This document shows, piece after piece, positions 4,059-26,984 of a DNA stretch of 64,000 nucleotides. Origin of the DNA: Sulfuriferula multivorans (lineage in GTDB: Bacteria > Pseudomonadota > Gammaproteobacteria > Burkholderiales > Sulfuriferulaceae); the NCBI RefSeq assembly GCF_003851125.1, contig NZ_BGOW01000003.1, positions 124,001-188,000 on the forward strand, written 5' to 3'. Position 1 is the first letter of the stretch. Every line of letters begins with the position of its first letter. Both the position numbers and the translations under genes were made by a program. Under the pieces are notes generated by a model, which worked only from the letters and a program-made list of their open reading frames with translations, ran no database searches and was not told where the DNA came from.

Positions 4059-5357
4059 ATGAAAATCCACATCAAGAACGGTCGCCTGATCGACCCCAAG
4101 CACGGCCTCGACACCCACGCCGACCTCTATATCGCAGCCGGCAAAATCGCTGCCATCGGCAGCGCACCCAGGGACTTCCACGCCAACCGCGTGATCGACG
4201 CCAGCCACTGCATCGTCTGCCCCGGCCTGGTCGATCTCGCCGCGCGCCTGCGCGAACCGGGCTTCGAGTACAAGGCCACGCTCGAATCGGAAATGGATGC
4301 CGCGTGCGCCGGCGGCATCACCAGCCTGGCCTGCCCGCCCGACACCGACCCGCCGCTGGACGAACCCGGCCTGGTGGAGATGCTCAAGTTCCGCGCCCAG
4401 AATCTCAACCAGGCACGCGTCTATCCGATCGGCGCGCTGACCCAGAAATTGGAAGGAGCGCGCCTTACCGAAATGGCCGAGCTGCGCGACGCCGGCTGCG
4501 TGGGCTTCTCCCAGGCCGACGCCCCGATCACCGACACCCAGGTGCTGGTGCGCGCGCTGGAATACGCCGCCACCTTCGGCTTCACCGTATGGCTGCGCCC
4601 GCAGGACGCCTACCTCGCCAAAGGCGGTGTGGCGCACGACGGCTTCGTCGCCACGCGCCTGGGTTTGCCCGCCATCCCCACCAGTGCGGAGACCGTGGCG
4701 CTCGCCACCATCCTGCTGCTGGCCAGGGAAACCGGCGCGCGCGTGCACCTGTGCCGTCTTTCCGCCGCCGAGAGCCTGGCGATGGTGCGCACCGCCAAGG
4801 CCGAAGGCCTCAACGTAAGCTGCGACGTCGGCATCAACCACGTCCACCTCAGTGAAATGGACATCGGCTATTTCGACACCAACCACCATCTCGTGCCCCC
4901 GCTGCGCGGCCTGCGCGACCGCGACGCGATCCGCGCCGCACTCGCCGACGGCACCGTGGACGCGCTGTGCTCCGACCACACCCCGGTGGACGAAGACGGC
5001 AAGCAAATGCCCTTCGGCGAATCCGAACCCGGCGCCACCGGGCTGGAACTGTTGCTGCCACTGACGCTGAAATGGGCACGCGAAAACGGCATTCCGCTCA
5101 GCCAGGCACTGGCGCGCATCACCCATCAACCCGCCCATATCCTCGGCCTCGACGCCGGGCACCTGGCCATCGGCCATGCCGCGGACATCTGCGTGTTCGA
5201 CCCTGAAGCTACGTGGATAGTCGCCTCCAGCATACTCAAAAGTCAGGGCAAGAACACACCGTTTTTGGGTTATGAAATGCAGGGGCGGGTGCACGCCACG
5301 TTGGTGGAGGGGCATGTGGTGTTTGAGGGGGAGGAGAATGGGCAGAGGCGGAGGTAG
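4059..5357 (+). CDS. Dihydroorotase-like protein PyrC' (predicted non-catalytic)
   Basis: 432 residues with the amidohydrolase fold of type I dihydroorotases along its length. The metal-ligand histidines are gone. The usual D-x-H-x-H is DLAAR (residues 59-63), the usual H-C-E is RPQ at 180-182, and H-x-x-H-x-S is HLCRLS at 230-235. The aspartate of CSDHTPVD near 312 survives. In pseudomonads and relatives such a PyrC' is known to be inactive and to serve as the structural partner of PyrB in class A aspartate carbamoyltransferase. The location just after pyrB fits that role. A true dihydroorotase should therefore be encoded elsewhere in the genome. The ATG at 4059 has only a weak ribosome-binding site. 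Confidence 0.9.
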   Translation: MKIHIKNGRLIDPKHGLDTHADLYIAAGKIAAIGSAPRDFHANRVIDASHCIVCPGLVDLAARLREPGFEYKATLESEMDAACAGGITSLACPPDTDPPLDEPGLVEMLKFRAQNLNQARVYPIGALTQKLEGARLTEMAELRDAGCVGFSQADAPITDTQVLVRALEYAATFGFTVWLRPQDAYLAKGGVAHDGFVATRLGLPAIPTSAETVALATILLLARETGARVHLCRLSAAESLAMVRTAKAEGLNVSCDVGINHVHLSEMDIGYFDTNHHLVPPLRGLRDRDAIRAALADGTVDALCSDHTPVDEDGKQMPFGESEPGATGLELLLPLTLKWARENGIPLSQALARITHQPAHILGLDAGHLAIGHAADICVFDPEATWIVASSILKSQGKNTPFLGYEMQGRVHATLVEGHVVFEGEENGQRRR

Positions 5358-5474
5358 AATCCAGGTCGGCCCCGCACTGGCCCGCCCCGCAACCTGTCTC
5401 GCACCTTGTCAAGCAACCGGGGAGGCTGAATTGTGGTGCTCTGCCGGCGCTTTTTAGAGAGCCCATATATTACG

Positions 5475-6501
5475 TTAGCCCTTCCGGGAGTCGAAATGAA
5501 CTATCACGCTGAACTTGCTCTGATAAAACAGAACTTCGAGCAACTCCTCACGTTGTGTGACCCTAATTCGGCGTGCGATTGGCGTCCTAGCGAAAGTCAA
5601 CGCCTTGCCTACGTTCCACTCGCGGAACGTGTGCTCAGAGCAATAGACAGAGTGCGAAACCTCGAAAGACGAAAACTGTTACAGGAAGGGCAACCTCAGG
5701 AGTACGTCCCGCATTCAATTCTCTTTTATATCCGTGACCAAGTAGACCCACGTGTAAGTGCACTGAAAGAAGCCTTAGATCGCCTTGACCCAGATGGAGC
5801 CTTTGTTCGCCAGCTACTTGATGAACTTGATCACGTTACCTGCCCCGTGAATCAAACATTTGAAACTGGCATCGAACAAGTTCGAGAGCTAATTGATCGA
5901 AATCCCGATAGGGACTTTGATAGCTGGCTCAACCCTGACACTGCTTGCGAGGTTATTGACTCGTCATTGATTTCCTTCGATCCTGACTCATGGCTGGATC
6001 GCGCACGTGAATTGGCTCCGATTCGCACACACAAAAAAGATGTCCTGCTACCTAGCCATGTTCGGCTCCGCATCGAAGAACTCAATCGCGCATACGTCTT
6101 CGGTTGCTGGCTGTCCGTGCTTGCGCTCTCCCGCGCAATTTTGGAATATGCAGTCCTCGATAACATTCACAAATTCGACATCGCTCCAACTTGGCCAGCC
6201 GTGGGGCGAGATCCAAAAGGAAGGACGAAGAAGCTGGCTGATCTAATCGAGGATCTAACTCCGCATGTTCCGGCCCTCTCGAAAGGAATGGACAAGCTTC
6301 GAGACTATGGAAATGATTACATGCATCCAAAAAAGTCCCAGATGAGCAAGGAGACTTTGTTCCAATGCAAATCTGCGGCGAAGGACGCAGTGAAGACCGT
6401 AGTTGACGTCGTCGAGGGCCTATATCTTGTTCAAAAACCGGGCTAACCCGGCAGTCAACACGGACGCTGCGCGATTAAGCCGCGCAGCGCTTGTTACTAC
6501 G
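5475..6501 (+). mobile_element. Integron-type gene cassette (single orf plus attC)
   Basis: The left boundary is GTTAGCC at 5474-5480, with the crossover expected after the G. The right boundary is the core GTTATGT at 6501-6507, the last part of a complete attC. The inverse core GGCTAAC at 6441-6447 is the exact reverse complement of the left-hand GTTAGCC, which is what a circularised cassette predicts. The cassette is 1027 bp with one gene (5496-6446) whose stop codon lies inside the inverse core, as in classical cassettes. No integron integrase or attI was recognised in the window, so this looks like a cassette stranded at a secondary site or the remnant of an array. Confidence 0.8.
5496..6446 (+). 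CDS. Cassette-borne protein with DUF4145-like C-terminal domain
   Basis: 316 residues from the ATG at 5496, which has GGGAG five bases upstream. The longer opening from 5433 would cross the cassette boundary. The C-terminal third (about 210-310) has the helical pattern of DUF4145: an AYVFGCWLSVLALSRAILEYAV helix, then LADLIEDL, then LRDYGNDYMHP. The N-terminal two thirds are unrecognised and mostly alpha-helical. No membrane segment or signal peptide is present. DUF4145 proteins are often carried on mobile DNA and near restriction or phage-defence genes, but their biochemical function is not established. Base composition is visibly less GC-rich than the neighbouring pyr genes, consistent with acquisition. 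Confidence 0.75.
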   Translation: MNYHAELALIKQNFEQLLTLCDPNSACDWRPSESQRLAYVPLAERVLRAIDRVRNLERRKLLQEGQPQEYVPHSILFYIRDQVDPRVSALKEALDRLDPDGAFVRQLLDELDHVTCPVNQTFETGIEQVRELIDRNPDRDFDSWLNPDTACEVIDSSLISFDPDSWLDRARELAPIRTHKKDVLLPSHVRLRIEELNRAYVFGCWLSVLALSRAILEYAVLDNIHKFDIAPTWPAVGRDPKGRTKKLADLIEDLTPHVPALSKGMDKLRDYGNDYMHPKKSQMSKETLFQCKSAAKDAVKTVVDVVEGLYLVQKPG

Positions 6502-6507
6502 TTATGT
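6441..6507 (+). other. attC: attC recombination site (59-base-element type)
   Basis: 67 bp. It begins with the inverse core GGCTAAC and ends with the core GTTATGT. Between them is a perfect 9-bp stem, CGCTGCGCG (6464-6472) with CGCGCAGCG (6481-6489). Partly paired outer boxes (GTCAACA against TTGTTAC) flank it. The mispaired outer boxes and strong inner stem are the normal architecture of attC sites, which are recombined as folded single strands by IntI. Its size is at the short end of the known attC range. Confidence 0.82.
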
Positions 6508-6528
6508 TTATCCATAGGAGAGTCCTTA

Positions 6529-6903
6529 ATGCTAAAAATATCGAGAATTGCATTCCTTCCCGTTGGCCTTTGCGTCATATTACTTGCCGGTTGTGCTGTT
6601 GGGTGGACACGCCCCAACACTACTGAATCTGAGTTTAATCAGGATCGTTACGAATGCCAGCAACAAGCCGCGCAAATGTATCCTGTCATGATGGTTCAAA
6701 GAACTATTGGCGTTGGCTATCAGACTTCGGCTCAAACAAACTGCACCTCTTACGGATACAATACGAACTGCACTACAACTGGCGGGAACTATGTTCCACC
6801 TGCCACAGTAACTGAGGACGCAAACTCAAATAATCGCAATACCGCATTTAGCTCATGTCTGAACTCCAAAGGATATACGTTCAAAATGGAGTTCAAAAAA
6901 TAA
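6529..6903 (+). CDS. Small secreted lipoprotein of unknown function
   Basis: 124 residues. The signal peptide ends in the lipobox LLAGC (cysteine at about 22), so the mature protein should be lipid-anchored. It is rich in Asn, Thr and Tyr and carries further cysteines (ECQQQ, TNCTSYGYNTNCTT, SSCLNSKGYTF) that could form disulfides. The ATG at 6529 is preceded by AGGAGAG. The gene starts 28 bases after the attC crossover point, as a cassette gene would, but I see no second attC after its stop, only RAYT-associated repeats. It may be a cassette whose end was lost, or the resident gene beside which the cassette landed. No specific function can be assigned. Confidence 0.75.
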   Translation: MLKISRIAFLPVGLCVILLAGCAVGWTRPNTTESEFNQDRYECQQQAAQMYPVMMVQRTIGVGYQTSAQTNCTSYGYNTNCTTTGGNYVPPATVTEDANSNNRNTAFSSCLNSKGYTFKMEFKK

Positions 6904-6919
6904 TGCCCGAGGAATATCA

Positions 6920-6977
6920 GGGTCAGGTCTCAATACTCTTAGTTTAGTGAAGGAGCCGGGGTCAGGAGCCGGGGTCA
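6920..6977 (+). repeat. Direct repeats upstream of the REP-associated transposase
   Basis: GGAGCCGGGGTCA occurs twice in tandem (6952-6964 and 6965-6977). GGGTCAGGTCT occurs at about 6920-6930 and again at 6972-6982, the second copy running into TTGCATTA. Short GGGGTCAGGTCTTGCATT-like strings just before the gene are typical of sequences associated with RAYT transposases. No matching copy was found immediately downstream of the transposase gene. Confidence 0.6.
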
Positions 6978-7017
6978 GGTCTTGCATTAACACATCCCCC
7001 TCTGCCATACTCCTCCC

Positions 7018-7860
7018 ATGGCACGCCCCTTACGACTCGAACTGGCAGGCAGTCTTTACCACGTGACCTCGCGCGGTGACGGCCGGGAGGATATTTACCT
7101 GTCGGACGCTGACCGGGAAGCCTGGCTGGCAGTATTGGGGCAGATCTGCATGCGCTTCAACTGGGTGTGCCACGCCTGGTGCCAGATGAGCAATCACTAT
7201 CATCTGCTGATTGAAACGCCGGAAGCCAACCTGGCACAGGGGATGCGCCAGCTCAACGGGGTGTATACGCAACGCTTCAACCGCCTGCACGGACGGGTGG
7301 GGCATGTGTTTCAGGGCCGGTACAAAGCCATCCTGGTGGAACGCGACAGCTACCTGCTGGAACTGGCGCGCTACGTCGTGCTCAATCCGCTGCGCGCCGG
7401 GATGGTGAAGCGGCTTGAAGCCTGGCCGTGGAGCAGCTACCTCGCCACCTGCGCTCAGGCGCCTGCGCCGGAGTGGTTGCAAACCGACTGGATCCTAGCG
7501 CAATTCGGGCGGCAGCGCAGCCGCGCGATCCGGAAATACGTGGCCTTCGTGCATGAAGGTGCGCGGCTGCCGAGCATATGGTCACAGTTGCGGGGTCAGA
7601 TTTATCTGGGCTCGGACGCCTTCGTGGAAAAGATGCAGATGCAAATCGAAAAGAAACCGGCGCTGGATGAAATACCGCGTGCGCAGCGGCGCGGGCTGAC
7701 CCAGCCCCTGGCGGATTTCGAGCGGCGCTATGACCGCAACGAGGCAATGGCACGCGCGTACCGGTCAGGTCAGCACACCATGGCAGCGATCGCCCGGCAC
7801 TTCGGTGTTCACTACTCGACGGTGAGCCGGCTGGTCAAGGCGTATGAAGATTCAGCGTAG
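7018..7860 (+). CDS. REP-associated tyrosine transposase (RAYT, Y1_Tnp family)
   Basis: 280 residues. Single-strand DNA nuclease of the IS200/IS605-related Y1 family, thought to move or maintain REP/BIME sequences. The N-terminus ARPLRLELAGSLYHVTSRG is characteristic. The metal-binding HUH-type motif is NHYHLL near residue 61. The likely catalytic tyrosine is in ARYVVLNPLRAG near 121. A C-terminal helix-turn-helix (AIARHFGVHYSTVSRLVKAY, 256-275) is present, as in the longer RAYT subgroup. The gene is full length and intact. It borders the integron cassette segment, so this stretch has taken at least two kinds of mobile DNA. Confidence 0.88.
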   Translation: MARPLRLELAGSLYHVTSRGDGREDIYLSDADREAWLAVLGQICMRFNWVCHAWCQMSNHYHLLIETPEANLAQGMRQLNGVYTQRFNRLHGRVGHVFQGRYKAILVERDSYLLELARYVVLNPLRAGMVKRLEAWPWSSYLATCAQAPAPEWLQTDWILAQFGRQRSRAIRKYVAFVHEGARLPSIWSQLRGQIYLGSDAFVEKMQMQIEKKPALDEIPRAQRRGLTQPLADFERRYDRNEAMARAYRSGQHTMAAIARHFGVHYSTVSRLVKAYEDSA

Positions 7861-7957
7861 GGCTGAAGAATGCTATGTTGAGAAACCTGATTGCGCGAAC
7901 AACTATCGATGACACATCGATACCGCGTGGCGTCACCAGACCCAACCCGGAGCCGTT

Positions 7958-8455
7958 ATGACCGTACGCAGCAGAAACCAGATAGTCCATACCCTCTTTG
8001 ATATCGGCGTGATAAGCAAAGCCGTGGATGGCGTGCTCGAAATTATCGGCGGCATCCTTCTGTTCTTCGTTAATCCCGCCCAGATCCACGGGCTGTTGCG
8101 GGCGCTTACCCAACATGAGTTGAGCGAGGATCCGCATGATTTGATTGCCGGCTTGATCATGCGTTCTGTTCAGCACCTCTCCATGGGTACCGAGGCCTTC
8201 GCTGCGGTGTTTCTGTTATGGCACGGAGCGGTCAAGATCGGCGTGGTGTGGGCCCTGTGGCAAAAGAAATTTTGGGCTTATCCGATTGCGATAGTGGCGT
8301 TTGGGCTGTTCCTGATCTATCAGGTCTATCGCTATTCTCTCACCCATTCAGTCTGGCTCCTGGTGCTTTCATTCCTTGATCTCTTCGTGATCATTCTCAC
8401 TTGGCTCGAGTACAGGCGCTTGCGTAGTTCGCACGGGTTCAGTCAATCGCACTGA
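7958..8455 (+). CDS. DUF2127 family integral membrane protein
   Basis: 165 residues with about four predicted membrane helices. The sequence follows the DUF2127 pattern: VSKAVDGVLEIIGGILLFF near residue 19, then LWHGAVKIGVVWALWQKKFWAYP near 87, then FLIYQVYRYSLTHSVWLL. Function is unknown. Such proteins sit alone or beside transporters in many proteobacteria. It is a stand-alone gene here, 97 bases after the RAYT stop and 145 bases before the EamA gene. The ATG at 7958 is preceded by a modest GGAG. Confidence 0.75.
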   Translation: MTVRSRNQIVHTLFDIGVISKAVDGVLEIIGGILLFFVNPAQIHGLLRALTQHELSEDPHDLIAGLIMRSVQHLSMGTEAFAAVFLLWHGAVKIGVVWALWQKKFWAYPIAIVAFGLFLIYQVYRYSLTHSVWLLVLSFLDLFVIILTWLEYRRLRSSHGFSQSH

Positions 8456-8600
8456 GGTGCCAGAGTTGGCATAAACGCCCCTGCCAACACAGCCAATGCT
8501 TAGAGCCGCAAAAATGTCGGAAGAAAACCATGGTCTGGTTAGAAATGGCAGAATCCTCAATATTGAGTCCAGGTGAACTGAATACCCCTACTGTCGATTT

Positions 8601-9464
8601 ATGACTTTAAAACTTCCCATGCCGCCTACACGCACAATTGCCCTGACCGTACTCGCCATGATCGCGTTTGCCGGCAATTCGCTGCTATGCCGGGCGGCCC
8701 TCAAACACACCAGTATCGATGCGGCCAGCTTCACGACCATTCGTCTGATCTCCGGCGCCGTGATGCTCTGGCTGCTGGTGAAAATGCGGCGCATCACGCC
8801 TGGCGGCGAGGGTAACTGGCTGTCGGCTGTTGCGTTGTTTATTTATGCCGCCGGCTTTTCTTTTGCCTATGTGAGCCTGCCTGCGGCGACCGGTGCACTA
8901 CTGCTGTTTGGTGCAGTGCAGGCGATGATGATCGGCCATGGCATCTGGGCCGGGGAACGCCTGCGCAGACTGCAACTCGTCGGATTGGTGCTCGCTTTCG
9001 GAGGAATTGTTGGCCTGTTGCTGCCGGGTCTTTCGGCACCGCCCCTGTATGGTTCCATATTGATGTTGGGTGCCGGGGTGGCGTGGGGCGTCTATTCCTT
9101 GCGCGGGAAAGGTGCGGGTGATCCCGCCAGCGTAACAGCGGGTAATTTCCTGCGCGCTGCACTTATCTCGGTAATACTGAGCGCACTCATGCTCAACGGC
9201 GCCTCATGGGATATTGCCGGATTTTGGTACGCGGTTTCTTCAGGCGCGCTGGCTTCCGGAATAGGATATGCCATCTGGTATACAGTATTGCCGGCACTGA
9301 AAGCCACGAGTGCCGCCACCGTGCAACTGAGTGTCCCGGTCATTGCGGCGTTGGGAGGCATCATGTTGCTTGGCGAGCCCCTATCCTTGCGCCTGGTATT
9401 GGCCTCGCTGGCTATTCTCGGCGGAATCGTTCTGGTCATTCTTGAAAAACAAAACGCCATCTGA
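8601..9464 (+). CDS. EamA/DMT-superfamily transporter
   Basis: 287 residues with ten hydrophobic segments in two EamA repeats, as expected for the drug/metabolite transporter superfamily. The second repeat includes YAIWYTVLPALKATSAATVQL and the typical GGIMLLGEPLSLRLVLAS. The substrate cannot be deduced; relatives export amino acids, nucleosides or drugs. Two starts are possible, ATG 8601 and ATG 8619, neither with a strong ribosome-binding site. A perfect 12-base palindrome (CTCAATATTGAG, 8556-8567) lies 34 bases upstream and might be an operator. The FlK-like gene follows 23 bases later, so the two may be co-transcribed. Confidence 0.88.
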   Translation: MTLKLPMPPTRTIALTVLAMIAFAGNSLLCRAALKHTSIDAASFTTIRLISGAVMLWLLVKMRRITPGGEGNWLSAVALFIYAAGFSFAYVSLPAATGALLLFGAVQAMMIGHGIWAGERLRRLQLVGLVLAFGGIVGLLLPGLSAPPLYGSILMLGAGVAWGVYSLRGKGAGDPASVTAGNFLRAALISVILSALMLNGASWDIAGFWYAVSSGALASGIGYAIWYTVLPALKATSAATVQLSVPVIAALGGIMLLGEPLSLRLVLASLAILGGIVLVILEKQNAI

Positions 9465-9487
9465 CTGATGCGCGACAGGAGGTTCCA

Positions 9488-9925
9488 TTGAAAGACACCC
9501 TGCAACCCGGCATCCGCTACGAACACAAGTTCATCGTGCCGATATCGAAAACCGTACCGGCGCTGTATCCGGAATCCGCAGAGTTTGTGGCGATGCCTGA
9601 AGTCTTTGCCACCGGTTTCCTGGTGGGTTTGCTCGAATGGGCCTGTATCAAGGCGATCAACCCGCATATTGATTGGCCAGACGAACAAACAGTCGGGACG
9701 CACATTGACGTAAGCCATGAAGCCGCCACGCCACCGGGCCTTGAGGTCACCGCTACCGTAGAGTTGACCGCTGTCGAGGGAAGAAAACTTATTTTTGCCG
9801 TGGAGGCTCACGACGGGGTGGATATAATTTCTAAAGGACGGCACGAACGGTTCGTAATCAACAGGGAACGGTTTGCTGCGAAGCTGGGCGAAAAAATGCG
9901 GGGCAACTCATCATCCTGCGCCTGA
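9488..9925 (+). CDS. Hotdog-fold thioesterase, FlK family
   Basis: 145 residues. It resembles the fluoroacetyl-CoA thioesterase FlK. T42 and E50 fall at the same positions as FlK's Thr42 and Glu50, and a histidine (H77 in SHEAATPPG) lies where FlK has His76. The family also includes general acyl-CoA thioesterases, and nothing here implies fluoroacetate metabolism. The start is TTG at 9488 behind a good AGGAGG. It lies 23 bases after the EamA gene. Confidence 0.8.
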   Translation: MKDTLQPGIRYEHKFIVPISKTVPALYPESAEFVAMPEVFATGFLVGLLEWACIKAINPHIDWPDEQTVGTHIDVSHEAATPPGLEVTATVELTAVEGRKLIFAVEAHDGVDIISKGRHERFVINRERFAAKLGEKMRGNSSSCA

Positions 9926-9988
9926 CCCACATCGCACGATCATCACACCGCGACTGAGCTGGTAATACATATCAAAGGAGTCGGTATC

Positions 9989-10105
9989 ATGAAACCTCGC
10001 ATTGGCATGATTACCCTGGATGTTCGCGATCTTGGCGCCGCGATAAAATTTGAGGTAGCGCACAATCCCCTTTTTTGGGTCGGCCCAAGCGACCATGACG
10101 CATAA
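9989..10105 (+). pseudogene. VOC (glyoxalase-fold) gene remnant with large internal deletion
   Basis: A ribosome-binding site (AAAGGAG, 9974-9980) precedes ATG 9989 and a 38-codon frame. The first part, MKPRIGMITLDVRDLGAAIKF, is a typical N-terminal start of a VOC protein. The last part, EVAHNPLFWVGPSD, is a typical VOC C-terminus. The two are joined in frame, so the roughly 90-100 residue middle, with most of the metal and substrate sites, is missing. It cannot fold as a normal VOC domain, and I call it a deletion remnant. The flanks hold no other recognisable gene between 9925 and 10188. Confidence 0.7.
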
Positions 10106-10187
10106 CGACACATTCCAACGTTAGTTCGCAGGGGTCAGTCAGCTAAACGAACGCCTCAGCAAGTTTGATTCAGGGAAGGGGAAAAGA

Positions 10188-11201
10188 ATGCTGCCAGTTG
10201 ACGAACCGCACAGATTGTTTCGCGCCTTCTCATTGGCGATCGCACTGGTACTCATGGGACAACTGGCATATGCGGGGTCGATACGTGACCGCATCATGGA
10301 ACGCTATTTAGCTGAACACTCAGGAAACATTGAGCATGACGATGCTTCCGGCAGTGTGCCTCTACCCGCTGGGATGCAACTGTTGCGAGATGTGCCCTAC
10401 GGCAAAGATGAACAACAGCGTATGGACGTTTATCTACCCAGACAGGCGGCAGGCGCTCCGGTGATTTTCATGGTTCACGGAGGTGGCTGGCACCGCGGCG
10501 ACAAAAGCTCAAAAACCGTAGTGGAAAACAAGATGACCCGCTGGGTATCCAGGGGATTTATTTTCATCTCGACCAATTACCGTCTGCTTCCCAAGGCCGA
10601 TCCTTTGCAACAAGCGCAGGATATCGCGCACGCACTGGCCACAGCCCAAGACAAGGCGGCTAGCTGGGGAGGCGATCCCACGAAGTTTATTCTGATGGGC
10701 CATTCAGCTGGGGCGCATCTTGTCGCCCTCCTGGCCGCATCGCCAACAATGGCCTTGCGCATGGGCGCGCGCCCCTGGTTAGGCACGATCTCTCTCGACA
10801 GTGCCGCCCTCGATGTTGTACAGACCATGGAAGCGCGGCACCTTCGCCTTTATGACCAAGCCTTTGGTAGCGATGCCAGCTATTGGGAAAAAGTGTCACC
10901 CTATCATGCGCTCGCTGCGAATGCGTTCCCATTTCTGACGGTGTGCTCAACTCGCCGTAGCGACTCATGCCAGCAGGCGCACGAATTCGCCGCCAAGGCC
11001 GCATCTTTAAAGGTGCGTGCCAGTATTTTGGAGCAGGATTTATCACACAAGGAAATCAATCAACAGTTAGGCGCCGCAGGGGGCTATACCGACTCAGTCG
11101 AGTCATTCATGGGCTCGCTGGATGCGTCTGTAATGCGCAAGCTAGCGAATCAATCGGGCACGTCAAACTTAACAGGTCACTTAATTCAACCCCAACCATA
11201 G
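10188..11201 (+). CDS. Secreted alpha/beta-hydrolase (esterase/BD-FAE-like)
   Basis: 337 residues. A signal peptide runs to about residue 29 (LVLMGQLAYA), so export to the periplasm or beyond is likely. The oxyanion-hole motif HGGGWHRGDK is at 97-106 and the nucleophile elbow GHSAGAH has Ser173. A C-terminal histidine in DLSHKEIN is a plausible triad member. This matches the hormone-sensitive-lipase/BD-FAE group that hydrolyses short-chain esters. The substrate is unknown. It has its own ribosome-binding site (GGGAAGGGG) and is followed nine bases later by a thiol-redox gene, so it may head a small transcription unit. Confidence 0.82.
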   Translation: MLPVDEPHRLFRAFSLAIALVLMGQLAYAGSIRDRIMERYLAEHSGNIEHDDASGSVPLPAGMQLLRDVPYGKDEQQRMDVYLPRQAAGAPVIFMVHGGGWHRGDKSSKTVVENKMTRWVSRGFIFISTNYRLLPKADPLQQAQDIAHALATAQDKAASWGGDPTKFILMGHSAGAHLVALLAASPTMALRMGARPWLGTISLDSAALDVVQTMEARHLRLYDQAFGSDASYWEKVSPYHALAANAFPFLTVCSTRRSDSCQQAHEFAAKAASLKVRASILEQDLSHKEINQQLGAAGGYTDSVESFMGSLDASVMRKLANQSGTSNLTGHLIQPQP

Positions 11202-11210
11202 GCCCGGCTC

Positions 11211-11699
11211 ATGAGATATATCTCCCAGATCACTTTTCTTCTCCTTTGTGCTATTGCGGTGACGACATCTTCTGTCGCACAGAGTCTGTACAAATCCATC
11301 GGGCCTGACGGGAAGGTTGTCTACAGCGATCACCCGCCGGTCGGGGCTCGAATCGAAAAGACCATGCAGTTCACCAACCTGCCGAGCACGGCATTGCCGG
11401 CTTCGGCCTCCTCCTATGCCGAGCAGTTACGCCGGACGCAAGCTTCGCCAGCGACTGCTGCATCGGCCGGCGTTGTTTTGTACTCGGCAAAATGGTGCGG
11501 ATACTGCAAGCAAGCCAAGGCCTACCTGGCAAGCAAAAATATCGCGTACCAGGATTTCGACATTGATACCCGCGAAGGCATGACTGCTTACGTCCAGGCT
11601 GGCGGCGGCAAGGGCATACCGTTGCTGGTCGCATCCGGCCAGCACGTTCAGGGCTTCTCGCCGTCGGCCTATGATGAGCTCTTTGCCAACCGAAAGTAG
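11211..11699 (+). CDS. Exported DUF4124-glutaredoxin fusion protein with CGYC active site
   Basis: 162 residues. A signal peptide ends near residue 24. A DUF4124 segment follows (LYKSIGPDGKVVYSDHPP, 27-44), and then a glutaredoxin-like domain from about 85 with redox motif CGYC at 96-99 and the cis-proline region GKGIPLLV. It is probably a periplasmic thiol-disulfide protein; its partner is unknown. A paralogue with the same two-domain layout but a CGPLC motif lies at 16486-17049. It follows the esterase by nine bases. The C-terminal GFSPSAYDELF is shared in character with the paralogue (GFDPNRWNTAL), supporting common descent. Confidence 0.82.
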   Translation: MRYISQITFLLLCAIAVTTSSVAQSLYKSIGPDGKVVYSDHPPVGARIEKTMQFTNLPSTALPASASSYAEQLRRTQASPATAASAGVVLYSAKWCGYCKQAKAYLASKNIAYQDFDIDTREGMTAYVQAGGGKGIPLLVASGQHVQGFSPSAYDELFANRK

Positions 11700-11908
11700 G
11701 GCAGGAAATCTGCGTAGCCCGCCTTCATCAAGCCAATGGCGGGCAGCTGGATGCGCCCGAGACATTATTCGATCCCTGGTAAATCGTCCCGACATTCACG
11801 GCGAATAATTTTTTACACTTGCCCCGGCAAGTGGAACGGGGATGTAAATGTGGCTAACAAGGGCACCCTGAACGCGGTAAAATACGCAAAACTTACTGCA
11901 TACAGCTT

Positions 11909-12661
11909 ATGTCGCACAAAAAACTGCCTTATTTTGAACTGCGCAACAGCACCGTCGATACCCTTCTTTTCATCGTCAAATCAACCGATCTCTCGGAGCT
12001 TCGCGCCGAGTTGGCGCGCCGCTATGAGGCGACGCCCGGATTTTTCGCCAACGATGTGGTCGCCATCGATCTGCGACGTCTTGAAAACGAGCGGATACCG
12101 GTCGACGACGTCGCCGCGCTATTAAACGAATTCCGCTTGCGCCCGATCGGCATCGTCGCCACCGAAGCGCAGCAGGAATGGGCGGGGAAGGGCAACCTGC
12201 CCTTCGTTGAATTGCGCGAGCGTCGCGATGCCAGCAAACCGGCCGCTGCGCCCGATGCACCTGACGCGCCACCCGCAACACCGCCATCTCCGCCTCCCGT
12301 AAGCGAAAGCACTGCCAAGGTAGCCGCCACCACCATGGTGATCGACAAACCGTTGCGTTCCGGTCAACAGATTTATGCCCCCGGCGATCTGGTGGTGCTC
12401 GGCCTGGTCAGTTTCGGCGCCGAGGTCATCGCGGCAGGCAGTATCCACATCTACGCGCCATTGCGCGGCCGCGCTCTGGCCGGGGTGCACGGCGACCATG
12501 AGGCGCGTATTTTCTGTACCTGCTTTGAGCCCGAACTGATTGCCGTCGCAGGAATCTACCGAACAGCAGAAAACCCTTTGCCCGACAATGTGCTGGGCAA
12601 ACCGGTTCAGGTCAGACTGAATCAGGAAAAATTAATCATTGAGCCGTTGCGCCTCACCTGA
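11909..12661 (+). CDS. minC: Septum site-determining protein MinC
   Basis: 250 residues. Inhibitor of FtsZ polymerisation near the poles. The N-terminal FtsZ-binding domain covers about residues 1-105. A Pro/Ala-rich linker (about 108-135) follows, then the C-terminal beta-helix domain that binds MinD ([22 protein letters not shown] from about 148). It is the first gene of minCDE with 49 bases to minD. The 210-base gap before it holds a 7-bp inverted repeat (GCCCGCC at 11717-11723 with GGCGGGC at 11738-11744) without a T-run, and no gene. Confidence 0.96.
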
Positions 12662-12710
12662 GCATGCAACGGCTCACGTCTCCAATCCAACCATTTAACA
12701 AGGGCAAGGT

Positions 12711-13526
12711 ATGACAAAAATCATTGTGGTGACCTCAGGCAAAGGCGGCGTCGGCAAGACCACCACCAGCGCCAGCTTCGCTGCGGGTTTGGCATTGCGC
12801 GGTCACAAGACAGCGGTCATAGACTTCGACGTCGGCCTGCGCAATCTCGATCTGATCATGGGCTGCGAGCGCCGCGTGGTGTATGACCTGATCAACGTGA
12901 TCCAGGAGGAAGCCAACCTCAACCAGGCGTTGATCAAGGACAAGAAGTGCGAAAACCTGTTCATCCTGCCGGCGTCGCAGACACGCGACAAGGACGCGCT
13001 GACGCATGAAGGTGTCGAAAAAGTGATCACCGATCTGCAGGGGATGGGCTTCGAATACATCGTTTGCGATTCGCCCGCGGGTATTGAATCAGGCGCATTG
13101 CTGGCCATGCATTTCGCCGACGAAGCGCTGATCGTCACCAACCCGGAAGTGTCGTCGGTGCGCGATTCGGACCGGATTCTCGGCATGCTGTCGTCCAAAA
13201 CCAAACGCGCGATCGAAGGCAAGGATCCGGTCAAGGAGCATTTGCTGATCACGCGTTACAACCCGAAACGCGTCAGTGAAGGCGAAATGCTGTCGCTGAC
13301 TGATATCCAGGAAATTTTACGCATTGAACTGATCGGCGTTGTGCCCGAATCGGAATCGGTGCTGCACGGTTCGAACCAGGGCGTGCCGGCGGTGCATCTG
13401 GAAGGTACCGATGTTGCCATGGCGTATCAGGACGTGGTTGCCCGCTTCCTCGGTGAAGACAAGCCGTTACGCTTTACCGACTACCAGAAGCCGGGCTTGC
13501 TCAAACGCCTCTTCGGCAATAAATAA
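12711..13526 (+). CDS. minD: Septum site-determining ATPase MinD
   Basis: 271 residues. Membrane-associated ATPase that carries MinC to the inner membrane and oscillates with MinE. The deviant Walker A motif [15 protein letters not shown] is near residue 9 and the [10 protein letters not shown] region near 38. The C-terminal amphipathic membrane-targeting helix is present (LLKRLFGNK). A ribosome-binding site AAGGGCAAGG precedes the ATG at 12711. It is followed by minE after ten bases. Confidence 0.98.
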
Positions 13527-13536
13527 GGGGGTAATC

Positions 13537-13794
13537 ATGATGTCTATACTCTCGTTCCTGCTTGGGGAAAAAAAGAAAACCGCGTCGGTCGCCAAGGAGC
13601 GCCTGCAACTGATCATCGCGCACGAACGTGCCGGCGGACATGCGCCCGCCGATTATCTGCCGGCGCTGCAAAAGGAACTGGTGGCGGTGATTTCCAAATA
13701 CGTGAAGATCGGCGCCGACGATATCAAGGTCAGCCTGGAACGCCAGGACAATCTCGAGGTTCTCGAAGTCAAAATCGAAATTCCGCAAACCTGA
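13537..13794 (+). CDS. minE: Cell division topological specificity factor MinE
   Basis: 85 residues. Stimulates MinD ATPase and drives pole-to-pole oscillation. It has the membrane-binding N-terminus ([14 protein letters not shown]), the MinD-contact helix [15 protein letters not shown] and the C-terminal dimerisation domain ([12 protein letters not shown]). Two adjacent ATGs (13537 and 13540) are possible starts behind AAGGGGG. A much longer in-frame opening from 13339 lies within minD and is a shadow. minE ends the min operon and is convergent with the gamma-carbonic anhydrase gene. Confidence 0.97.
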
Positions 13795-13826
13795 ATATGG
13801 CCTGAGGCGCCGGGCACGCCGCAATG

Positions 13827-14378
13827 TCAGCCTTGCTGATAATCCCGCGCCAGCTTCACGTAATGTTCCGCAGAGTAGCTGAAGTAGGCCAGTTCCTCAT
13901 CGGTCAGCGGCCGTATCAGTTTGGCGGGGCGGCCGATGTAGAGGTGGCCGCCTGACAGCACCTTGCCCTCCGGTACCAGACTCCCCGCACCGAGCAGCAC
14001 GCGCGGCTCGATCATCACTTTGTCCATGACGATGGAGCCCATGCCGATCAGGCATTCATCGCTTATCGTGCAGCCATGCAGGATGACGCTGTGGCCGACG
14101 GTGACATTGGCGCCGATCATCAGCGGGGCGCCCATGGGGTCGCGCTCGGTCTTGTGGGAGACGTGCAGCACGCTGTTGTCCTGGATGTTGGTGCCGGCCC
14201 CGATGCGGATGCTGTTCACGTCGCCGCGGATGACGGCGCCGCACCATATCGAGACGTTGTCGCCGAGGACGACGTCGCCGATGACGCGCGCGCTGTCGTG
14301 AATCCAGCTGCCGCGTCCAACGCGCGGCAGCATGCCGCGAAAGGCTTGAACATTCTGTGCTGGGAGCTGTCCTGACAT
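13827..14378 (-). CDS. Gamma-class carbonic anhydrase family protein (YrdA/PaaY-like)
   Basis: 183 residues. Left-handed beta-helix hexapeptide protein, presumably a trimer. The likely metal ligands are the histidines in LHVSHKT and GHSVILHGC. Relatives include Cam-like carbonic anhydrases and YrdA, many with weak or unknown activity. I chose ATG 14378 (MSGQL) because the alternative ATG at 14393 is only five codons longer and has no better ribosome-binding site. The opening that continues to 14711 runs under prlC. It is divergent from prlC with a 61-base gap. Confidence 0.88.
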   Translation of the reverse strand: MSGQLPAQNVQAFRGMLPRVGRGSWIHDSARVIGDVVLGDNVSIWCGAVIRGDVNSIRIGAGTNIQDNSVLHVSHKTERDPMGAPLMIGANVTVGHSVILHGCTISDECLIGMGSIVMDKVMIEPRVLLGAGSLVPEGKVLSGGHLYIGRPAKLIRPLTDEELAYFSYSAEHYVKLARDYQQG

Positions 14379-26165: not shown

Positions 26166-26984
26166 ATGCCCCAGCTTTATGCCGTGATCGGCAACCCGGT
26201 CGAGCATTCAAAATCACCACTCATTCACGCCGCTTTTGCCCGTGAAACCTGCCAGGATATCGTCTACGAGCGGCTCCTGGCGCCACTGGACGGCTTCGCT
26301 GAAACGGTCAATGCATTCCGTCGTTCGGGCGGTGCCGGGGCGAACGTGACCGTGCCGTTCAAGGAACAGGCTTTTGCGTTGGCTGACGAGATCTCCGAAC
26401 GCGCGCGGCTTGCGGGCGCGGTCAACACCCTGAAATTTACCGACGCGCGTATCGAGGGCGACAATACCGACGGTGCCGGGCTGGTGACAGACATCACACG
26501 CAATCTCGGCTTTAACATTGCGCGGAAACGGATTCTGATCATAGGCGCAGGTGGCGCGGCACGCGGTATCGCCTTGCCGCTCCTAGCCGAATCTCCGGCG
26601 CTCCTGGTCTTTGCCAACCGCAACCTGAATAAAGCGCAAATACTGCAGCATCAATTTTCACCCTATGGTGTGGTGGAGACTTGCGATTTTGCCGCTCTGC
26701 CAGGCAGGCAGTTTGATCTGGTCATCAATGCCACTTCGGCCAGCCTGTCGGGCGAACAGGTGCCATTGCCCGCCGATCTCTATGCTTTGGACAGCCTGGC
26801 CTACGACATCATGTACGGCATCGGTGAAACCCCGTTTCTCGCCCATGCCCGCAGTCACGGCGCGGGCCAGTACTCGGATGGCCTGGGGATGCTGGTCGAG
26901 CAGGCCGCGGAAGCCTTTTATGTCTGGCGCAAGGTGCGTCCGACAACTGCGCCGGTCATAGCAATGCTGCGTCAGCACTCATAA
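26166..26984 (+). CDS. aroE: Shikimate dehydrogenase (NADP+)
   Basis: 272 residues. Reduces 3-dehydroshikimate to shikimate in aromatic amino-acid synthesis. The shikimate-binding residues are in [17 protein letters not shown] at the N-terminus. The catalytic lysine is in [11 protein letters not shown] near residue 66 and the NTDGAGLV motif is near 99. The NADP-binding loop is [14 protein letters not shown] near 128. The stop codon overlaps the mtgA start (TAATG), indicating coupled translation. Confidence 0.96.

Follow-up and report, generated by a model that had tools for sequence, protein, structure and literature searches.

A lone gene cassette beside pyrC in Sulfuriferula multivorans is very probably the remnant of a decayed second chromosomal integron

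The 64-kb stretch of the Sulfuriferula multivorans genome analysed here (the window) holds an intact integron gene cassette with a complete attC site next to pyrC. The immediate left flank of the cassette contains an integron integrase (intI) fragment and an attI-like core, arranged in the order and orientation that they have in an integron, and a complete integron is present elsewhere in the genome. We conclude that the locus is very probably a once complete second chromosomal integron that has decayed at both ends. The stump of intI and attI beside the cassette, together with the complete integron elsewhere, argues for a decayed element of a known kind and against a cassette left behind at some random site. 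The features of the locus are given in Table 1.

Table 1. Features of the decayed locus beside pyrC, in window coordinates
Feature	Position	Strand	Basis and remarks
intI 5′-end remnant, 19 codons, QSTTIQPPRLLDKVRDRLR	5387..5443	-	tblastn and blastn
attI-like core, CGGCGCTTTTTAGAGAGCCCATATATTACG/TTAGCC	5445..5480		crossover point (slash) between G5474 and T5475
Intact integron gene cassette	5475..6501	+	1027 bp; complementary GTTAGCC and GGCTAAC boundaries, complete attC
Cassette gene, 316 aa, uncharacterised	5496..6446	+	DUF4145 below threshold only
attC, recombines as folded bottom strand	6441..6507	+	R″ GGCTAAC, R′ GTTATGT at 6501-6507; covariance model and fold
Probable second cassette without attC, begins TTATGTTTATCC	6502..6903	+	lipoprotein-like ORF 6529-6903, G+C 44%
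RAYT (REP-associated tyrosine transposase), ORF 7018-7860	6953..7860	+	right end of relic

The lone cassette adjoining pyrC is real and carries an attC. A first-pass annotation of the window had placed it at these coordinates and had described a left boundary that exactly complements the inverse core, with the stop codon inside that core; all of this was borne out. The two motifs, at 5474-5480 and 6441-6447, are exact complements and place core sites of the form 5′ TTRRRY and R″ RYYYAA around the ORF, whose TAA stop lies within GGCTAAC. The G+C content is 51% in the cassette, 44% in the ORF to its right (ORF2) and 63% in the pyr genes.

Folding of the attC bottom strand and scoring with an attC model had been proposed in the annotation as checks. 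The fold showed the expected structure of an R′/R″ arm, an L′/L″ arm and a 9-bp terminal stem. The folding energy corresponds to z = -3.6 with the surrounding bases included but only to z = -1.7 for the exact 67 nt. Because the energy by itself is thus modest evidence, we built a covariance model (R1) from 16 attCs of integron arrays in the same genus, leaving the window attC out. The model matched 6441-6507 end to end with 30.0 bits (E 1.1e-5), and this was its only match in the 64-kb window. In G017, another member of the genus, an array attC (L089:3827-3896) is almost identical in sequence. An Rfam search gave no match, a genome-wide search for the exact pattern GTTAGGC...GCCTAAC, which is too strict, returned nothing, and the pattern RYYYAAC...ACGTTAG yielded chance-like matches only.

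The cassette protein had been annotated as DUF4145-like. Its score against this Pfam family is 15.6 bits (E 0.017), below the gathering cut-off of 23.1 and confined to residues 242-281, and the assignment is not upheld. Two full-length homologues were found in other bacteria, with 50% and 46% identity, and neither homologue gene is followed by an attC. Among 399 genomes of the order there is one weak relative besides the protein itself. A search of a defence-system library gave no match, and the predicted structure, of low confidence (mean pLDDT 56), would be all-helical. The assignment of the locus to an integron is independent of the function of this protein.

The 100 bp to the left of the cassette read chromosome, reversed intI 5′ end, attI and cassette, which is integron order. 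In particular, the minus strand from 5443 to 5387 encodes 19 intI codons in frame, divergent from the cassette, and the G003 counterpart reads KNTTFRPPRLLDQVRDKLR. This segment is the best window match for all nine of the nine intI N-termini of the genus in tblastn, with E values from 1e-5 (G003, the best) to 0.08 (the resident IntI on contig C46), and blastn aligns window positions 5395-5438 with the 5′ end of the G003 intI at 84% over 44 nt. The stump is of another lineage than the resident integron beside miaA, and the G003 intI is the closest to it. Relative to G003, the stretch from attI to the intI codons is short by about 110 bp, the part with promoter and start codon, and nothing remains beyond about codon 25; the remnant lacks about 90% of the gene, and these 19 codons are all of intI that adjoins the cassette.

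The attI-like core, flanked by the intI remnant on one side and the first cassette on the other, matches the attI-cassette junction of G011 at 80.6% over 36 nt (31.9 bits). The whole window was also scanned in a sliding manner against the attI regions and intI 5′ regions of the genus, with 20 Markov copies of the window as controls. The intI match reached 49.1 bits, whereas the best unrelated segment of the window scored 28.3 and the highest-scoring of the 20 Markov copies 31.0. Taken alone, the attI match is therefore modest, barely above chance level; by its position it is strong, since it is in the expected place, in the right orientation and at nearly the right crossover distance. The first-pass annotation had reported no integrase, attI or second complete attC. 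This statement stands for complete copies within the window, but it fails for the genome, which has the C46 intI and further attCs, and for the remnants left of the cassette, which also speak against the view that the cassette is stranded outside an integron.

A DNA search with the left flank through the 399 genomes of the order gave weak matches, and those that were read were chance G+C-rich matches, with the exception of a 19-nt core. This core, ATATATTACG/TTAGCCCTT (ATATATTACG/TTAGCCC), is identical to window positions 5465-5483 and occurs in another genus of the order at two unrelated loci (G160, L135 near 8373; G366, L136 4425). Both loci carry lone cassette-like inserts at the core, and no intI was found in the 14-16 kb read there; the core is perhaps a preferred insertion core or the end of an attI. 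Neither the left flank nor either of the two cassette proteins had a match among plasmids.

To the right of the attC junction, the low-G+C ORF at 6529-6903 starts straight away, as a second cassette would, and the segment is probably such a cassette. The R″ expected for it, GGATAAACATAAC, is absent. The RAYT ORF that follows scores 77.6 bits against NCBIfam NF047646 (cut-off 80) and is above the cut-off for Pfam Y1_Tnp. At the threshold used, the element has one other copy in the genome, 96% identical, on contig C62 (L021 10357-11262), where it follows a cassette whose attC ends just past R″. A relative in G017 (L089 4067-4888) lies 170 bp after an array attC. RAYTs were thus seen at cassette ends in three places (window, C62 and G017), in two of them after a cassette without a complete attC.

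The genome (3.6 Mb, 87 contigs) was searched for intI and related attCs, as the first-pass annotation had suggested, and both were found. Contig C46 carries a complete integron integrase (486.9 bits, cut-off 265) that adjoins miaA and is divergent from an attI, CCTACATTACG/TTAGGG; after the attI come a cassette, whose attC scores 54 bits, and then the end of the contig. Genome-wide, the covariance model reported 17 attC candidates. C54 is an array contig, and further array pieces lie on C76 and C62. The first cassette of C46 recurs in C54, and one cassette end is common to C54, C62 and C76; these repeats probably explain the fragmented assembly. In the genus, intI was above the cut-off in 9 of 18 genomes, and wherever the neighbourhood was read (C46 here, G001 and G003) it lies beside miaA. 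A strong attC of 56.8 bits was also seen among prophage-like genes on C17 (L118, 80000-88000, about 4207-4271), and no cassette start was found upstream of it. In a relative, G013, an element whose tyrosine recombinase is split over two frames (256 and 75 aa) occurs on contig C1 at over 30 places, in copies that score identically.

When the other attC-bearing contigs were searched for pieces of intI, a locus on C20 beside dapD (L117 900-3200) turned up. Here, a segment (L117 3013-3123) matches the 5′ end of the G003 intI at 81% over 110 nt and keeps the reading frame to about codon 32, after which the chromosome begins. The cassettes are divergent from the intI fragment, and their attCs, at L117 2007-2069 and 1148-1211, have scores of 67.7 and 26.9 bits (in either order). 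This locus appears to be a second decayed integron of the same build as the one in the window, which makes a chance origin of the window intI fragment still less likely.

The interval beside pyrC was compared with that of relatives. In the closest relative, G001, pyrB and pyrC are 91-93% identical in DNA, and the distance from pyrC to the gene starting at window position 13827 is 387 bp, uninterrupted by a cassette, versus 8.47 kb in the window. The comparison, which had been proposed in the first-pass annotation, thus gave the uninterrupted version but no clean gap of one cassette. No integron was found at pyrC in G001, G003 or G016, and the latter two hold other genes there. At E 1e-20, positions 5358-13826 had no DNA match in G001 among the 16 candidates scored per genome. 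The pyrC spot is variable, and the relic forms the left part of a larger segment that is absent from the relatives compared. The same 8.47-kb segment contains minCDE-like genes at 11909-13794, for which no DNA match was found in 17 genus relatives at E 1e-20 among the 16 candidates scored per genome.

An alternative that the first-pass annotation had raised alongside the survival of the last cassette of an array is insertion at a secondary site: the resident IntI would have moved a cassette from the array into a chance site near pyrC, as in the attG insertions reportedly described by Loot et al. (2024, Nature Microbiology). What the locus shares with these is one cassette, complete with its attC, at a distance from the main array. 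The genome has a complete IntI to perform the reaction as well as scattered lone attCs, including the one on C26 whose site is nearly empty in G001; the 19-nt core at two lone cassettes of another genus, with no intI in the 14-16 kb read, also speaks for it. However, the left boundary of the window cassette is the attI remnant of its own integron and not a chance site, and insertion would leave unexplained both the 19 intI codons and attI-like core in integron order and orientation and the cassette-like ORF2 after the cassette. The flank is not unrelated to attI and intI, and the site in G001, 387 bp against 8.47 kb, is not a clean empty site. We therefore consider insertion at a secondary site improbable for the window, while the other suggestion of the annotation, that an array has shrunk to its last cassette, fits the stump and ORF2. 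A better candidate for a true secondary-site insertion, and a good one, appears to be a lone cassette on C26 (attC 26176-26239; about 4177-5247 in L122, C26:22000-30000), near which no intI piece was found in the 8 kb read. The site measures about 20 bp in G001 and about 1.26 kb here and is nearly empty in that relative, although the locus here has about 160 bp of extra sequence on its left.

It is also conceivable, though very improbable in our judgement, that the intI 5′ end, attI and cassettes were transferred as one module to pyrC (and dapD), the stump then being a sign of transfer instead of decay on the spot. This would accord with the presence in one genome of two relics whose intI genes break off at comparable points (about codons 25 and 32), and class 1 and 2 integrons are known to include cassettes that carry attI pieces (PMC12901181). 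Against it, the two breakpoints differ, no GTT-type recombination junction was seen at either, and two cases are few. Moreover, both intI fragments are closer to the G003 lineage than to the C46 intI, and the resident platform was therefore not the donor. For decay of a second integron, the reading that we prefer, the points against are that the attI match by itself hardly exceeds chance (31.9 bits, with 31.0 for the best Markov copy), that 19 intI codons are all that is left and that the spacing between attI and intI must have shrunk by about 110 bp. Since the whole 8.47-kb segment is absent in G001, the platform may have arrived already decayed within a larger segment.

A decayed second integron would have begun as a platform of divergent intI and attI with at least two cassettes downstream of pyrC. 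One deletion would have removed the stretch from attI to the start of the intI coding region, with promoter, start codon and first codons, and another all of intI downstream of about codon 25. At the right end, the second cassette would have lost its attC where the RAYT element now sits. This would leave 19 intI codons and the attI core, followed by a single intact cassette and a cassette gene that lacks attC. The order of these events and the original length of the array are what we infer from these remains. Having no integrase of its own, the cassette can leave this site only if the complete IntI encoded beside miaA cuts it out at the attC; the resident enzyme may still mobilise it in trans.

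The locus is a new example of the known decay of integrons. Degradation of integrons has been proposed as the origin of clusters of attCs lacking integrases (CALINs), and cases with a single attC can be true positives (PMC9024848). The window locus resembles these loci, as defined by IntegronFinder (PMC9024848), in having an attC cassette with no functional integrase adjoining; it differs in that it keeps one attC only, below the current default of two, and in that traces of attI and intI directly show its integron origin. Pseudogenes make up nearly a third of intI genes, one carrier in five has more than one intI (PMC2426708), and in Xanthomonas the deletion of intI with arrays kept is common (PMC12444791). 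Deleted intI, retained cassettes and several integrons per genome are thus shared with such chromosomal integrons (PMC2426708, PMC12444791), but here the intI piece, of 19 codons, is unusually short, and two stumps coexist with one complete integron. With the miaA integron of the genus (C46, G001, G003) the locus shares the type of attC, the attI and the divergent intI, but it lies at pyrC and its stump is of a G003-like lineage. A platform that can be recognised from 19 codons, and one genome with a complete integron, two stumps and scattered cassettes, are somewhat unusual.

For the lineage as a whole, one could imagine, as a speculative and rather unlikely scheme, that platforms were repeatedly founded at new sites and then lost intI while one complete integron was kept, giving a live integron, at least two stumps with cassettes (pyrC and dapD) and scattered lone cassettes, with a single IntI possibly acting on all of them in trans. 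As the window locus shows, a lone attC that resembles a secondary-site insertion can be what is left of an integron, the only signs being some 20 intI codons and an attI core, which are too short to be picked up by gene-finding tools. Where secondary-site insertions are counted from lone attCs, the left boundary should therefore be examined for stumps of this kind. This genome is a useful natural case, combining a complete integron and two stumps with at least one good candidate, on C26, for a true secondary-site insertion.
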